From positions 1-25,661 of the IMG/VR virus record IMGVR_UViG_3300025120_000487: a stretch of DNA of 25,661 bases; one strand, given 5' to 3'. Position numbers and translations under genes: made by a program. The notes beneath the pieces are model-generated. The model saw only the letters and a program-made list of their open reading frames with translations, was not told where the DNA came from and ran no database searches. This DNA is from a virus. Of the stretch, positions 13,370-21,350 are shown in pieces; positions within the stretch are counted from its first letter, which is position 1, and each line of letters starts with the position of its first letter.

Positions 13370-15151
13370 TTAATATCCTCCTGCTGATGCTCCGGCTTCA
13401 GGGAATGAAGCTCCAGTTGGTTGAACATTGAAGTTAAGAATTATAAATTCAGCTGTCTTAGTTGGTTGTAAGTACACCTGTCCTACTAATTCATTCCTAT
13501 CAATTACTGCAGGAGTATTGATTGTTTCATCCATTACTACCTTAAATGCGTACAAACCTTGTCTTTGTTGTACTGATTCGAGGTATGGGTTTACAATTGC
13601 TAAGAAGTTATTTCTAGTAGCTACTGTGTTTTGTTCGAAAACAATATTACCTGCTTGCTGGTCTAAGAATTGCTTAACAGTAATTAATAATCTTCTAACA
13701 TTGATACGATCTAATGCTGACGCTTTAGTTTGTAATGTTTTCTGACCAAATACTACAACTCCTGATCTGGGGAATGCTGTGATTGGATTAACCTTATCAG
13801 CATATAATGTGTCTCTTGATGCTTTTGGTAAGCTTAAAGATGTTTTAAGTACCGTTGGTAATGCACCTCTATTTAGACCCGCCGGAGCGAACCAAGGCTC
13901 ACCTACCTTGTCATTAAACGCATATACTCCAGGAATAAACGTTGATGCTGGCGCCCACTTTAACCTTCCAGTGAGTGGATCACTGCAGTATAACCATGGG
14001 AAGTAAGCTGTTGCATAAGAATTATTAATATTTTTAGCTTCAGCAACTGCGTTTGCAACTGTTGCATCACCATAATCAGTTAAGTCAAGTACTGCTAAAG
14101 CATCTGCTCTTGCTTCAGTATTAGTTAATAGTATATTTAATTCTGCTGAATCGTCTTTATAATTTAATCCAGGAGCAGCTATTGAAGTGTAATTAAATTG
14201 TGGGTCATTTAATAAGTAGAAAGACTGGGTGTAATCAAATGCTTGAATACCCTGTATGTTAGTAGCTGAGGCTATGTCTTTACCAAAGAGAGCATTTGCT
14301 GCAATTATACCTGTAGCTCCCCCAAATCCTTCTGAAAGTGCTCCCGCTGATGTATTATGAGGGATACTTCCTGTAGGGCTAACTAGAGGTAAATCATTTC
14401 TAACATTTCCTGCACTATCTAAGTAATTTGGAGTTTCTTTAATGTCTGAAACATAAACATATTTACTAATATTTGGGAAATCTCCATCTTGTACTACTTG
14501 AGCTGATGTAGTTCCGGTATTAGCAATAGTTTGGAATTGGGTACCAATTGCTTTACCAATAAAGTTAGTGTCAAATGGGTCTAACGTTAGGTTATCATAC
14601 TGTTCAAGAACAATCTTATTATTGTCATCATCGTCTCCTCTTCTAATAACAAGTGTAAATGTACCAGATGCAGTAGAGGAATTTCTTATTTCAAATCTAA
14701 TATTTTCTTTACTACCTGAGGGAAATAAACCATTTGCATCGGCTGCAGTAGTAGAACTATTTTGGTCATTACCTTGGGCGATTGTTTTTAAAATAAAAGA
14801 AGTGGTTGAAGCCGCACTACCAGAAACGCTAGCGGTTGCAGAAGTATAAGTTCCATTTACTGCCCTACTAACTAAAAGAGTACTACCACCGTTGTTAAAA
14901 TAAGTGTAAGCAGCAGTGCTGTTAAAGAAAGAGTATTGACTTTGACCTTGTGCTACGGTTCCACTTGTAATTGTAGTACCAAATTTTGCTACGTAATCGT
15001 TATACGACGTAACTACTGTAGGGACTTGTACAGGACCTTTAGATGTGGGGCCTACAATAGCAGCTCCAGCTTCAATAACCCCTTGTGGGATAAATGACTG
15101 GTCTGTTTCATTAATATAAATGCCGGGAGAGACGATGTTGTTGTTTGCCAT
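13370..15151 (-). CDS. Tail sheath protein, gp18-like
   Basis: A 593-residue contractile sheath subunit. The N-terminus (SPGIYINETDQSF, then GAAIVGPTSKGPVQVPTVVT) is the standard sheath opening. The C-terminal domain carries NVRRLLITVKQFLDQQAG, a long helix, and the closing strand region (QVYLQPTKTAEFIILNFNV) used to link neighbouring subunits. The middle (about 90-260) is Ser/Thr/Asn-rich and corresponds to the variable surface-exposed insertion of T4-like sheaths. The protein ends in Ala/Gly (PEAGASAGGY), slightly unusual. It lies just before the tube gene with its own ATATTTAT motif, 25 bases before the ATG. T4 gp18 is 659 residues, so this one is of normal size. Confidence 0.92.
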   Translation of the reverse strand: MANNNIVSPGIYINETDQSFIPQGVIEAGAAIVGPTSKGPVQVPTVVTSYNDYVAKFGTTITSGTVAQGQSQYSFFNSTAAYTYFNNGGSTLLVSRAVNGTYTSATASVSGSAASTTSFILKTIAQGNDQNSSTTAADANGLFPSGSKENIRFEIRNSSTASGTFTLVIRRGDDDDNNKIVLEQYDNLTLDPFDTNFIGKAIGTQFQTIANTGTTSAQVVQDGDFPNISKYVYVSDIKETPNYLDSAGNVRNDLPLVSPTGSIPHNTSAGALSEGFGGATGIIAANALFGKDIASATNIQGIQAFDYTQSFYLLNDPQFNYTSIAAPGLNYKDDSAELNILLTNTEARADALAVLDLTDYGDATVANAVAEAKNINNSYATAYFPWLYCSDPLTGRLKWAPASTFIPGVYAFNDKVGEPWFAPAGLNRGALPTVLKTSLSLPKASRDTLYADKVNPITAFPRSGVVVFGQKTLQTKASALDRINVRRLLITVKQFLDQQAGNIVFEQNTVATRNNFLAIVNPYLESVQQRQGLYAFKVVMDETINTPAVIDRNELVGQVYLQPTKTAEFIILNFNVQPTGASFPEAGASAGGY

Positions 15152-15537: not shown

Positions 15538-16368
15538 TTAAAGATAAATCTTAAGTTCATCAAAATTAGAACCAGTTCTATATAATTGGCCAAATGTTAA
15601 ACCTGCTGAAGAGGTTGGGATTGAACCTGTATCGAACATAAATTTATTAGAATGGAATTCTACTAAGTTTTTTCTTTGAATATTGGAGACTCCAGTTCCA
15701 TTACCAATAACCACCATCGCTCCCGATCCTGATAGATTATATTGGCCTTGAACATGTTGGTAATCGGCATCTGCTATAGTATCTCTACCTTCAGCATGTG
15801 AATACTCACCCTTTGCTACAGTTCGGTAACCTTCAGTGTGAGAAGCAGAGCCAGATGCTTCAGTACTGTAACCTTCAGCATGAGCCCAAGTCCCAAAAGT
15901 TTGTGATGCAAATCCTTCAGCATGTGAGTATTGACCTTTTGCTATAGCCATTATCCCCTCAGCATGTGACTGATCACCTGAGGCTGACGTTATAGATCCT
16001 TCAGCGTGGGATTCTGCACCTAGTGCCTTAGTATTATAACCTTCGGCATGTGAGTATCCACCTTCTGCAAGAGTCTGTCTACCCTCAGCGTGGGATGATA
16101 CACCTGCAGCTTTAGTGAAAACTCCTTCAGTATGGGAATAATCTCCTGAGGAAGTTGTATTATATCCTTCGGCATGTGAATAAGTACCAGCTGCCACTGT
16201 AAGTGCACCGTGAGAAAAAGATTTATTACCTGTTGCGGAAGTACCTACCCCGAATGCTACTGATTTATCTCCAGATGCGGTAGATCCTGTCATTTGTAAC
16301 TCATCATTTACATTTAGGGGGTTTCCTGGTGTATATGATTCAAGATTATTTACTTTAAGGGTGCTCAT
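15538..16368 (-). CDS. Tail fiber with YadA-like SHAEG repeats (276 aa)
   Basis: Residues 1-40 (MSTLKVNNLESYTPGNPLNV and on) are almost identical to those of the next fiber upstream and probably form the attachment end. From 63 to 202 there are ten 14-residue repeats with the core Ser-His-Ala-Glu-Gly (at 64, 78, 92 and so on), preceded by degenerate copies from 34. Such repeats form a trimeric left-handed beta-roll, as in YadA-type adhesin heads. The C-terminus (SNKFMFDTGSIPTSSAGLTF, then LYRTGS and DELKIYL) matches the other fiber ends. It is probably a receptor-binding or whisker-type fiber. It has an upstream ATATTTAT motif and its own terminator, so it is a single-gene unit. The exact location on the virion is not shown by the sequence. 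Confidence 0.75.
   Translation of the reverse strand: MSTLKVNNLESYTPGNPLNVNDELQMTGSTASGDKSVAFGVGTSATGNKSFSHGALTVAAGTYSHAEGYNTTSSGDYSHTEGVFTKAAGVSSHAEGRQTLAEGGYSHAEGYNTKALGAESHAEGSITSASGDQSHAEGIMAIAKGQYSHAEGFASQTFGTWAHAEGYSTEASGSASHTEGYRTVAKGEYSHAEGRDTIADADYQHVQGQYNLSGSGAMVVIGNGTGVSNIQRKNLVEFHSNKFMFDTGSIPTSSAGLTFGQLYRTGSNFDELKIYL
15763..16182 (-). repeat. Tandem 42-base repeats encoding SHAEG units
   Basis: Ten in-frame units of 42 bases (14 residues) each encoding a variant of Tyr-Ser-His-Ala-Glu-Gly. The His-Ala-Glu-Gly positions are well kept and the others vary. Copy number could change by recombination between units. Confidence 0.85.
16255..16368 (-). repeat. Duplicated 5' fiber segment, copy A
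   Basis: 114 bases encoding residues 1-38 of the 276-residue fiber. They differ at only four positions from 17087-17200, mostly synonymous changes, pointing to a recent duplication or gene conversion. Confidence 0.9.
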
Positions 16369-16456: not shown

Positions 16457-17200
16457 TTATCCAAGTGAAATTTTAATTTCATCACGGAGAGATCCTGTCC
16501 TATATAAGGCTCCTATTACTCCTGGATCAGAAGTTGGTATAGATCCAGTGTCAAATACAAATCCTACTGATCCCGAACGGAAGTCAGCAAGGTTGCGGCG
16601 ATTTGGGAAAGCACCATTTCCAATTACAAATACACTGCCATGGTTTTGGTTCCCGATTTCGTTATATTTTCCAATACCTACTTGATATGGACGAGACAGT
16701 TGGATGTGATCTCCTAAAGCAAAACCGTATGTTGCACTTTCACTTATTTCACAAGTAAAACCATGGGCTGAGCCGTATTCGCCACGTACTCTGTTCAAAT
16801 ATCCATGGGTCCAACCGTAGTTTGCTTCTATTCTATTTGACGCACCTGCAGCAATACTATACTGAGAGCCAGATTGTATTTTGTTCAACCTTCCTCCAAT
16901 AATTGTTGAGCTAGATCCTGAAATTATCTGATTTGATGACCCTCCAAGAATAACGGATTGGGGGGAAAGGAATGCTACTTCATTAGAAGATCCTCCTACT
17001 ACAACGGTCTCTATACCTTTACATTCATTATAAACTCCTCCAACAACCGTAGAGTATGAACTGGATGCTATGTTTTGATTTCCAAATGCTACTGATTTAT
17101 CTCCAGATGCGGTAGATCCTGTCATTTGTAACTCATCATTTACATTTAGGGGATTTCCTGGTGTATATGATTCAAGATTGTTTACTCTAAGGGTACTCAT
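16457..17200 (-). CDS. Tail fiber with beta-roll repeats (247 aa)
   Basis: Residues 1-40 match the 276-residue fiber almost exactly. The middle (about 40-185) has irregular repeats of about 15-20 residues centred on Gly-Gly and Asn, such as STVVGGVYNE, SVILGGSSNQ, STIIGGRLNK and SIAAGASNR, again a YadA-head-like beta-roll but a different repeat class. The C-terminus (GFVFDTGSIPTSDPGVIGAL, then YRTGS and DEIKISLG) follows the shared fiber-end theme. It looks like a paralogue of the downstream fiber with a swapped middle, a common way to change receptor range. It lies between the dockerin-containing fiber (30-base gap) and a terminator. The upstream motif reads ACATTTAT, one mismatch from ATATTTAT. 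Confidence 0.72.
   Translation of the reverse strand: MSTLRVNNLESYTPGNPLNVNDELQMTGSTASGDKSVAFGNQNIASSSYSTVVGGVYNECKGIETVVVGGSSNEVAFLSPQSVILGGSSNQIISGSSSTIIGGRLNKIQSGSQYSIAAGASNRIEANYGWTHGYLNRVRGEYGSAHGFTCEISESATYGFALGDHIQLSRPYQVGIGKYNEIGNQNHGSVFVIGNGAFPNRRNLADFRSGSVGFVFDTGSIPTSDPGVIGALYRTGSLRDEIKISLG
17087..17200 (-). repeat. Duplicated 5' fiber segment, copy B
   Basis: Partner of 16255-16368, encoding the first 38 residues of the 247-residue fiber. Confidence 0.9.
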
Positions 17201-17230: not shown

Positions 17231-18691
17231 TTAAGGAGTTATTCCACTGAAAGATCCTTCTGCTATAATGTAAAAGTTCCCATCACAAACCTCAATAACA
17301 GGTCCTACAAATTGGTGATTAGATCCTTGGGGAATCATTACATCATTACATAGAACATTAGAATTACCAAATCCAGCAAGCACTAACAATAAATCTGACA
17401 TGTTTACAGATCCATCAAAGTTAAAATCACCAATAGATCCTATGGGAATATTAGTGCTACCAAATGCTGAAAGTAAATTCAATAAATCGCCGGCTGCCCA
17501 CCCCCCCGTAGGTTGATCTGCTTCTGGGAGGGGAATAGTAAATTTAAATCTAGAGTTAGACTCTGAAGTGAAAGCAACTATATTAGGAGGGGTTGGGCTA
17601 GAAATATCTCCTGAGCTACTATTAATAAAGTCAACATTAAGTTTATAAAAAGATCCACTATTTATTACATTTGTAACTTGATAATTGTATGTATGAAGAC
17701 TAGAATTTAAAAGCCCATCAAATTCAGGAGTCCATGCTATGGTAGCAAATTGGTTATTTGAAGCTGAGGTTGCTATTCCCTCAAAAAATACGCTAGCAGA
17801 GGGGTTTGGAGTTAAATTACTGTATCCTGTTTGGGATGATGTGCTAAAATTAAGGAAAGTAACACTATTAGGATTATAAGTAAGAAGCGAAGATGAAATT
17901 ACAGGAGATATATCATTAACTTTAACTTTTATGCTTTGGGGAATTGGGCTTGAGGTTCCATCAAATGAGTATCCATATAATAAAGTATCAGTAATAGGAG
18001 GAAGAGGGGCACTTAATGGTGGGGGTATAGTATTAGTAGAGCCCTGGTGAGTTATAGATCCTGTAGAAGTTTGGGAACCCGAAATTTCAAATGATCCTGT
18101 AAATGAACTCGAGCCTTCATTATCGAATGATCCAGAATTACCGAATGATCCTGTATTTGAAGTAGATCCTGTTATAGAAAGAGCAGATCCTTGTATAACC
18201 ATAGGAACTATAGAGGCTCCAATTTGAAAAGAGCTTGTTGTCATATCAAATAAAGCGACATTTGAAACTAAGTGTCTAACCCTACCAGGGGCAGAAGATT
18301 TCATTTGTACAAATGTAGAATCATCAGATTCGTGTACAATTTGTTTAGAATCACTTGTACGGAGACTTTTACCTGCCTTAAGGTTTACTACATCAGATTT
18401 AGTAAATTTAGTAATAGCACCCGAGGAGTCTACGAAATTAATGGAAGCTGTAGATACGTAAAGTTCTTTCCAAGCTGAAGTTGCTGAACCTAATTCAAAT
18501 GAAGAAGTAGTTTCAGTATCCGATGAGGATGGGATTAAGTTTCCCTTAATAGAAGTACCAGCAGCTGTAATAAAATTATTAACAGTTATTTTTTTAGTAG
18601 TACTACCATCATTAATTATTATTACATCAGAAGATCCCGTAATTTCTCCTGAGCTAGCGGCGGTTAATTCTGATATTTTTACTGTACTCAT
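17231..18691 (-). CDS. Tail fiber with a dockerin-type calcium loop (486 aa)
   Basis: The N-terminus (MSTVKISELTAASSGEITGS) is of the fiber type seen in related genes. Residues about 175-215 contain short Gly-Ser-Phe repeats (GSFGNSGSFDNEG). Residues about 225-400 look like beta-sandwich domains. Residues 422-442 read DFNFDGSVNMSDLLLVLAGF and match a dockerin type I repeat with calcium ligands Asp422, Asn424, Asp426, Ser428, Asn430 and Asp433. An earlier AGDLLNLLSAFG near 402-413 looks like a first half without the loop. Cys448 and Cys469 may pair. Dockerin-like ends are familiar from secreted bacterial proteins, so this is an unusual fiber tail. A calcium-stabilised fold or host-derived adhesion module is the inference. 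Confidence 0.68.
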   Translation of the reverse strand: MSTVKISELTAASSGEITGSSDVIIINDGSTTKKITVNNFITAAGTSIKGNLIPSSSDTETTSSFELGSATSAWKELYVSTASINFVDSSGAITKFTKSDVVNLKAGKSLRTSDSKQIVHESDDSTFVQMKSSAPGRVRHLVSNVALFDMTTSSFQIGASIVPMVIQGSALSITGSTSNTGSFGNSGSFDNEGSSSFTGSFEISGSQTSTGSITHQGSTNTIPPPLSAPLPPITDTLLYGYSFDGTSSPIPQSIKVKVNDISPVISSSLLTYNPNSVTFLNFSTSSQTGYSNLTPNPSASVFFEGIATSASNNQFATIAWTPEFDGLLNSSLHTYNYQVTNVINSGSFYKLNVDFINSSSGDISSPTPPNIVAFTSESNSRFKFTIPLPEADQPTGGWAAGDLLNLLSAFGSTNIPIGSIGDFNFDGSVNMSDLLLVLAGFGNSNVLCNDVMIPQGSNHQFVGPVIEVCDGNFYIIAEGSFSGITP

Positions 18692-19690: not shown

Positions 19691-20199
19691 TATAATCTTT
19701 CTTTAGTAATTCCTAACTGGTCACCTGGCACGTATATTGTAGAGCAAATAACTGATAGATTAGCTCCAAATTTTTCTAATCCTGGGTTTAGGGGGTTTTC
19801 TGAGTTGGGGTAATCAGGATTTTTTCCAAAGAAATATTGGTTTGAATTTGTATTAGTTACTTCATAGTAACCATTTTGATATAAAATTATGTCCCCTATT
19901 TCAGCTACTACGTTAGCATCTACTAAATCCTGTCTTAAAAATCTAAATTCAACCCCCCATTGGAAATCTACACCTAAATCACTTTCTGGGTAGCTTTGGT
20001 CTTGGCGAGATATTAGGGCATTAAATAATGTAGGACCTTCAAAATATTTACCCCCAGCTGCTTCACCATAGATGTTAATAGTAGTTTCTTCTAATCTATA
20101 TTTGTAGAAAGAACATTGTTGGGTAATAATATTCCCCATTAACTCTCGGTTAATTTTCTTTATCAAGCTTGTATCACGTACTCCTCCAAATAATGCCAT
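19690..20199 (-). CDS. Neck protein, gp14-like
   Basis: A 169-residue protein with a layout I recognise from gp14-type neck proteins of T4-like phages: an N-terminal helix (INRELMGNIITQQCSFYKYR), then NIYGEAAGGKYF, ALISRQDQSYPESDLG, VEFRFLRQDLVDANVVAEIG, DIILYQNGYYEVTNTNSNQY, and a closing NPLNPGLEKFGANLSVICST. These proteins gate the neck and connect the portal ring to the tail. T4 gp14 is 256 residues, so this is a shortened version, as in many marine relatives. It overlaps both neighbours by one base in TAATG junctions, so the three neck genes are coupled. Confidence 0.72.
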   Translation of the reverse strand: MALFGGVRDTSLIKKINRELMGNIITQQCSFYKYRLEETTINIYGEAAGGKYFEGPTLFNALISRQDQSYPESDLGVDFQWGVEFRFLRQDLVDANVVAEIGDIILYQNGYYEVTNTNSNQYFFGKNPDYPNSENPLNPGLEKFGANLSVICSTIYVPGDQLGITKERL

Positions 20200-21350
20200 T
20201 ATGCAATGTATATAGTATAAGGTACTGCTGCTAAATCTTTTTGTAAATACTCAGATTCTTGAGCCTTTTTTTCTAATAACTTAGTTCTAGAGGTTTCTCC
20301 TAAATAAGTTCTTAGCCTTTCTACTAAAGCATTTTTTTCGGCAGTAGCGGCAGAGATTAGGTCTCCATGATTTAAGGTAGTATCAGCACCCGGAATTGGG
20401 ACTACTGTGTATTTTCCTCTTACATAACCTAACATTTCTTTAGCTAAAGCTAAAGTGTATTCAAACACCCATTGTCTTCCTATAGAATTAATATTAGAGT
20501 AGGTAGGATTTGTGTAAGGTACAGTTGAAATGTCTGTTACTACACCCACTCCTAAACTACCCGTAACATAAGGATCATTTCTATCAGATTTTAAAATATA
20601 TTTAAAATATAACTTTTCACTTCTTTGAGGAATAGGAAAGATTCTAATATTGTTATTTACCAATTCAAAGCTATAATTTGATTTTCTAATTTGATCATTA
20701 AAATCTATTGCCTGGATTTTAGCTAAATCATAATTAATAGGCATCATTAAAAAATTAATACCAGGAGAGTAACTACCAAATCCAAATACATCTAATAGAC
20801 CTTGTACATCAGTTCCAGTACCAGCATAAGGGTCAAAGTATCTTATAATTGCGGGGTCTGATTGGTAGAATATTTCTTTAACTTCAATATTATTTTTTTC
20901 AGTACTTTGAGAAACCGCAAATTCTGTTAAGTCGTAAACTTGCTTACCTGCAGTCATTTGAATACTTCCTGTTCTATATTCAACTGTTCCTCCTACACCA
21001 GCCTCAGAACCATACTCATCTGCTAATCTTATAATAGCTCCTAGATTAGGTTTTTGTAATTTATAATTAGCTTGGGATCCGGTTTTTGAACCTTCAAAGT
21101 CTAAATAATTTTCACTTGCTTGGTATGCAAATACTTCATTACCATAAGTAGTTACTGCTTCCTCGAATGCAGTATAAAAATTAATGTCTTGTAATTCTAC
21201 ATCAGTAAGAGGATATCCTAAACGACGAGCACAAAATACGGATACCTTATCGGCGTCAGTTTGAAAATCTGTATCGTTATCATAAAACCCAAAAGGTGTA
21301 TTCCCCGGAAAAAATGAACTAGAGCCGGGCCATATTAAGGGATTTGCCAT
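20199..21350 (-). CDS. Neck protein, gp13-like
   Basis: A 383-residue protein at the start of the neck cluster. Near residues 30-75 it has the gp13-type opening (FCARRLGYPLTDVELQDINF, followed by an acidic helix with EEAVTTYGNEVFAYQ). The C-terminal half holds a helix-rich end (QWVFEYTLALAKEMLGYVRG, then LVERLRTYLGETSRTKLLEK) typical of neck or head-completion proteins. The middle (about 95-260) is beta-rich with Gly/Ser segments. With the gp14-like and gp15-like genes directly after it, a gp13-type role (head-tail joining) is the best reading. T4 gp13 is 309 residues. The TATAAATA-rich leader carries ATATTTAT at 21363 and no Shine-Dalgarno sequence. Confidence 0.65.
   Translation of the reverse strand: MANPLIWPGSSSFFPGNTPFGFYDNDTDFQTDADKVSVFCARRLGYPLTDVELQDINFYTAFEEAVTTYGNEVFAYQASENYLDFEGSKTGSQANYKLQKPNLGAIIRLADEYGSEAGVGGTVEYRTGSIQMTAGKQVYDLTEFAVSQSTEKNNIEVKEIFYQSDPAIIRYFDPYAGTGTDVQGLLDVFGFGSYSPGINFLMMPINYDLAKIQAIDFNDQIRKSNYSFELVNNNIRIFPIPQRSEKLYFKYILKSDRNDPYVTGSLGVGVVTDISTVPYTNPTYSNINSIGRQWVFEYTLALAKEMLGYVRGKYTVVPIPGADTTLNHGDLISAATAEKNALVERLRTYLGETSRTKLLEKKAQESEYLQKDLAAVPYTIYIA

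Follow-up and report, generated by a model that had tools for sequence, protein, structure and literature searches.

A predicted one-calcium, dockerin-like module beside the tip of a T4-like phage fibre

This analysis concerns a virus record of 25,661 bases (the window), whose T4-like cassette encodes PhoH, neck proteins, fibres, sheath, tube and tape measure. One ORF (17231..18691, on the minus strand, as are all window features given below) encodes a 486-residue fibre protein with orthologues in the same phage cassette of other IMG/VR contigs, and its residues ~391-445 are predicted to form a one-calcium module of dockerin fold between the shaft or variable domain and the tip. We put at about 0.55 the probability of this reading as a whole, in which bound calcium would make the module a rigid structural connection from shaft to tip. 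Dockerins are the protein-pairing modules of cellulosomes; the module described here works like half a dockerin, and where it recurs in other phage proteins it resembles a structural component for repeated use rather than a genuine dockerin of cellulosomes. It offers a concrete explanation for a possible calcium requirement of some marine phages in adsorption or stability, and it raises a testable question about host cohesins.

Fibre architecture and gene neighbourhood

Neighbouring the fibre gene are two genes for other fibre proteins, a YadA-head protein with SHAEG repeats (15538..16368; Pfam PF05658 above cut-off, phrog_25468) and a YadA-head-like or beta-roll protein (16457..17200; sub-threshold in Pfam). 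The virion cassette is marked by a head-tail adaptor (neck) homologue (20199..21350; phrog_211 head-tail adaptor) and by the tail sheath (13370..15151; phrog_23, E 2.8e-74). The sheath is closest to that of Flavobacterium phage immuto (49% identity over 94%), and the nearest cultured phages by tail sheath have Flavobacterium hosts; the neck adaptor is 46% identical to that of immuto and 51% to that of a phage recorded from Microcystis elabens. Judged from these sheath and adaptor relatives, the host of the phage is likely to belong to the Bacteroidota.

Within the fibre protein, orthologue conservation delimits an N-terminal or shaft-base region at residues 48-158 (18218..18550; ..SSFxLGSxxxAWxELYVSTASINFV..GKSL..). 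The first ~30-100 residues are common to other phage fibres with different C-terminal modules, and proteins sharing only this stretch carry other modules, YadA-like repeats or endosialidase-type chaperones. Residues 229-392 (17516..18007) constitute an extra region found in the alignment only in the window and in one orthologue, L003; AlphaFold2 gives it a mean pLDDT of 41, hence no confident model, and its dN/dS against L003 is 0.30. An X-module-like domain accompanying the dockerin, as in X-dockerins, was considered as a conceivable identity for this region. The module follows, composed of a degenerate first half and a complete second half, and the chain ends in a C-terminal beta tip at residues 446-486 (17234..17356; IPQGSNHQFVGPVIEVCDGNFYIIAEGSFSGIT).

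This tip was recognized through structural matches in BFVD, through phrog_18671 and through alignment with phage proteins. Its BFVD matches reach a probability of ~1 over approximately the tip length in many phage fibre proteins, including the Pantoea phage LIMEzero tail fibre; it can be aligned with the C-termini of Salinivibrio phage CW02 and Pseudomonas phage proteins (IPxxxNxxxxGP..), and a Synechococcus phage fibre has the same kind of ending. The last ~40 residues are a separate, widespread phage fibre-tip fold, shared with Salinivibrio CW02 gp55, Pseudomonas PP21 and Synechococcus ACG-2014h (phrog_18671); unlike the window fibre, those inspected lack the calcium module. Since the tip is a distinct generic fold, the module does not form the tip but lies immediately behind it. 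The original prediction assigned the dockerin-type loop to the C-terminal part of a phage fibre, and the identity as a fibre is upheld by the tip fold, by tail-fibre PHROG matches of the orthologues and by the gene neighbourhood: the protein combines a generic beta tip with a virion cassette running from neck to sheath. The span originally proposed, 17231-17570 (residues 375-486), does include the loop, but it also takes in the separate tip at 446-486.

The calcium loop and its relationship to dockerins

The complete loop occupies residues 422-433 (17393..17428; DFNFDGSVNMSD). It reads D422-x-N424-x-D426-G427-S428-V429-N430-x-x-D433, so that dockerin loop positions 1, 3, 5, 7, 9 and 12 are all occupied, as originally claimed for a repeat with six filled ligand positions, and LLLVLAGFGN follows directly. 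The exit helix DLLLVLAGFGN (residues 433-443; 17363..17395) is conserved and coincides with a modelled helix at 431-440. When the fibre protein was shuffled 200,000 times, the strict pattern D.N.DG.V...D appeared in 4 shuffles, and with LL appended in none. No further loop of dockerin type occurs in any other ORF of the window, all of which were checked.

The degenerate half that had been predicted about 20 residues upstream is likewise recognizable, at residues 391-412 (17456..17521). The helix repeat DLLNLLSAFGS (402-412) resembles DLLLVLAGFGN (433-443) with a BLOSUM62 score of 30, against 11 for the next best segment, a score reached in 24 of 20,000 shuffles. This half has no intact loop: ligand positions 391, 393, 395 and 402 read A, Q, T and D, leaving only D402 together with glycine 396, and its helix (DLLNLLSAFG) is modelled at 400-409.

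Profile comparisons point to dockerins, at a level below formal annotation. Pfam Dockerin_1 (PF00404) matches residues 421-437 with 14.7 bits in the whole protein and 17.0 bits in the C-terminal 102 residues, both under the gathering score of 22.9 bits, and it matches at E<=0.1 in seven of eight orthologues including the window (best E 0.0057). A profile built from the eight orthologues alone, with no canonical dockerin in it, returns cellulosomal dockerin chains as its top five PDB matches (best E 0.001). A profile of 24 phage modules matches 2y3n_B with an E-value of 2.8e-11, in a set that was enriched by the search motif and includes some canonical two-loop members.

The AlphaFold2 model of the module region (mb21ab4828c71; mean pLDDT 75.7) is a monomer of moderate confidence whose input alignment contained canonical dockerins. 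Its helices span 400-409 and 431-440, and the loop is preceded by coil, so that the segment is modelled as loop and helix and not within a beta fold. With moderate confidence, this geometry indicates an F-hand and not an EF-hand; an EF-hand or EF-hand pair is ruled out on the model by the coil at 410-430, which leaves no helix before the loop. A fold search with the model gives an X-dockerin as best PDB match, at a weak E-value of 2.9 that is only a hint. Taken from sequence, profiles and model, the calcium loop of dockerin type stands as originally described, with calcium binding as a prediction.

Type I dockerins consist of two duplicated F-hand loop-helix motifs, both of which bind calcium (PMC4728124, PMC5141474), and their canonical cohesin contacts are S-T at positions 11-12 and K-R at positions 18-19 (PMC4728124). 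As in the Dockerin type I domains (PF00404) of cellulosomal enzymes and scaffoldins, the window module has an F-hand loop with all ligand positions, an exit helix, tandem halves and a location near the C-terminus. At least one complete calcium loop with its ligands kept in relatives is present, and in the model, at moderate confidence, it is followed directly by a helix that forms one of a pair. Unlike Dockerin type I, the module has one intact loop, the first half retaining its helix and glycine with three ligands replaced, and M431-S432 and L438-A439 take the place of the S-T and K-R contacts; it resides in a phage fibre, is followed by a fibre tip and has no known cohesin partner. With a single intact loop, a score under the Pfam cut-off and no canonical cohesin contacts, it does not belong among the full type I dockerins. 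Reduced dockerins also exist in Ruminococcus flavefaciens, whose group 2 truncated dockerins are proposed to have one binding mode (PMC2930009); those are bacterial and cellulosomal, unlike the phage module, and the likeness concerns reduction in general.

Conservation and recurrence of the module

Orthologues of the fibre occur on seven further IMG/VR contigs (L003, L129, L130, L131, L132, L133 and L134), and in six cases the cassette around the gene is clearly the same; in addition, L002/L008 duplicates the window region without any difference. Across the eight orthologues, window included, G421, D422, N424, D426, G427, V429, D433, L434, L438, G440 and G442 are invariant, so that the ligands D422, N424, D426 and D433, whose conservation was proposed as a check on the original prediction, are kept throughout; L403, L404, L406 and L407 of the first-half helix are also invariant. 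Since some orthologues had been found by the loop motif, a separate search used the N-terminal region alone, and the module was present in all six near-full-length orthologues recovered, the window's own sequence being counted. Compared with L003, dN/dS is 0.12 in the module region (393-447) and 0.11 in the loop-helix (421-443), against 0.33 for the whole gene. The module is under strong purifying selection and is retained where adjacent domains vary. One orthologue carries a second, mid-shaft module (L129:6144-6476) whose two halves are split by a fibre repeat (TGSFGVSGSSTFQ), and the L003 shaft contains additional loop-less helices of the module type.

Beyond the orthologues, a degenerate codon pattern covering loop and helix gave 112 matches in viral contigs and none in reversed codon order. 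Compared outside the module, 115 motif ORFs fall into 51 clusters, namely 29 free small ORFs (49-61 aa), scored as singletons because they were completely masked, and 22 otherwise unrelated proteins. Some of these 22 holders are secreted and host-like, and others are virion proteins by PHROG or Pfam: the module follows collagen repeats in a tail fibre (L093), and is also present in L086, which resembles a tail fibre, and in L029, a tail-terminator fusion. Ligand conservation among these holders is not independent, as many of the non-orthologous ones were found by the loop motif itself. Occurrence of the reduced one-calcium form in many unrelated marine phage-contig proteins suggests that phage appendages draw on it as a mobile building block.

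The free proteins of ~49 residues have the same layout as the window fibre, a degenerate half followed by a complete half. They are represented by L053:5588-5734 and about 28 further IMG/VR loci such as L049, L050, L060 and L107 (MTIDIYYLLSWLAYFG...DLNGDGYVTIADLLEFLTLFGTTI), and several contigs have another small ORF with one loop nearby. The L060 pair is located among tail genes, which suggests that the unit can stand alone. Proteins with canonical two-loop dockerin-like modules also occur in viral contigs (L024, L048, L062, L067, L106 and L118), and the two-loop dockerins of other phage proteins align with the window module across both halves. Tblastn with five queries found no cultured phage with the module; the L133 C-terminus gave only weak matches (E 0.09 and above), and those inspected correspond to the fibre tip and not to the calcium loop.

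The open-access literature searched yielded no account of phage fibres with dockerin modules; single remarks in it concern a dockerin homologue in gene 40 of Vibrio phage VvAW1 (PMC3558961) and, in an E. coli phage, resemblance to a different "dockerin carbohydrate binding module" (PMC5967307). Judged from that literature, the phage-fibre setting of a reduced dockerin appears to be new; scores under the Pfam cut-off account for its being overlooked by annotation pipelines.

Proposed role, rival explanations and cellular counterparts

A structural link is favoured over docking to a host cohesin because the module is conserved, lies between shaft and tip, recurs in fibres and is distinct from the tip, and among the roles originally proposed, calcium stabilisation of the distal fibre fits best. 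In such a link, the first half would contribute only its retained helix and the second half the complete F-hand calcium loop and exit helix; the helices of both halves would pack against each other in a short hairpin, one calcium ion would be bound at the module by every chain of the fibre, presumed to be a trimer, and the resulting compact knob would stiffen and properly space the joint between shaft and tip. Phages may have inserted this reusable part into many fibre proteins. Consistent with a structural role, the module is kept next to differing domains, recurs mid-shaft in L129, in the collagen fibre and as free proteins, and adjoins a protein end already taken up by a generic phage tip. 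Against it, strong conservation would also be expected of a module that binds a conserved receptor, and a site beside the fibre tip is a frequent place of adhesins.

A rival reading is an adhesin that docks onto a cohesin-like or other host surface protein, so that adsorption would exploit the host's own dockerin-docking system. In its favour, the module adjoins the tip, Flavobacterium is the host of the cultured phages closest in sheath sequence, dockerin-like C-termini abound in genomes of marine Flavobacteriales, and truncated dockerins with a presumed single binding mode are proposed for R. flavefaciens (PMC2930009). Nevertheless, we consider an adhesin unlikely: the type I cohesin contacts are replaced, the module is conserved, not diversified, and is also found in the middle of a shaft and in virion proteins of other kinds, and no cohesin domain was found in the window or in six orthologue contigs, which are fragments, although 2 of 15 dockerin-bearing MAGs have cohesin matches. 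The specific proposal that marine Bacteroidota phages use a captured half-dockerin beside the tip to dock onto host-surface cohesin-like proteins is quite improbable; if true, it would represent a phage receptor-binding system derived from the host's dockerin-docking machinery. Docking might instead occur within the virion, where the module would join the fibre to a neck or tail protein or to a second fibre in the manner of a dockerin and its cohesin. Dockerins are pairing modules, several fibre genes are adjacent in the cassette, and immuto, the closest cultured relative, encodes a cohesin-domain protein; but that protein is probably on the cell surface, immuto has no dockerin match and the window no cohesin domain, which makes such pairing similarly improbable.

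Two further explanations concern the origin of the loop. Calcium loops of this form are found in many folds and the Pfam score lies under the dockerin cut-off, so the loop could be EF-hand-like and of independent origin; this is very doubtful given the internal repeat, the G-D-x-N-x-D-G start, the exit helix and the F-G end, all dockerin-like, the first rank of dockerins in the orthologue-only profile, the alignment of two-loop phage dockerins over both halves and, in the model, the missing preceding helix. A chance match in a low-complexity fibre, conceivable given the high content of D, N, G and S in such proteins, was rejected as negligibly probable on the shuffles, ligand conservation in eight orthologues, purifying selection (dN/dS) and the codon-reversed control (112 against 0 viral matches).

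Cohesin-domain proteins were noted in two MAGs and in immuto. The two MAGs, those behind L152 and L203, have cohesin matches above the Pfam cut-off (loci L306 and L307) and also encode dockerin-like proteins; at L306, cohesin and dockerin-like protein lie ~1.5 kb apart on one contig, and these cohesins are candidate docking partners. In immuto, the cohesin-domain protein (L312:3692-4423; MW353175.1 12691-13422) is encoded two genes after a C-type lectin protein. Its type 9 secretion C-terminal tail and position outside the virion cassette suggest a location at the cell surface, and both proteins are probably phage-encoded cell-surface proteins; a literature search turned up no proteomic study of immuto.

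The motif is common at protein C-termini in Flavobacteriales and Fimbriimonadales genomes, and these dockerin-like tails are a plausible cellular source of the module. Their one- or two-loop forms, including the NCBIfam "GC-type dockerin" NF041540, share a very similar loop-helix (D-[LF]-N-x-D-G-x-[VI]-x3-D-L-L-x2-L-x2-F-G) but, unlike the phage module, occupy the extreme C-terminus of secreted cellular proteins and are often cysteine-bracketed. Secreted-looking proteins at Flavobacteriales loci such as L137, L145, L152, L161, L165, L172, L192 and L214 end in one dockerin loop with a cysteine on either side, C-P-A-D-L-N-x-D-G-x-[VI]-x-T-x-D-L-L-x-F-L-x-x-F-G-x-x-C, which is possibly an anchoring or sorting tail.
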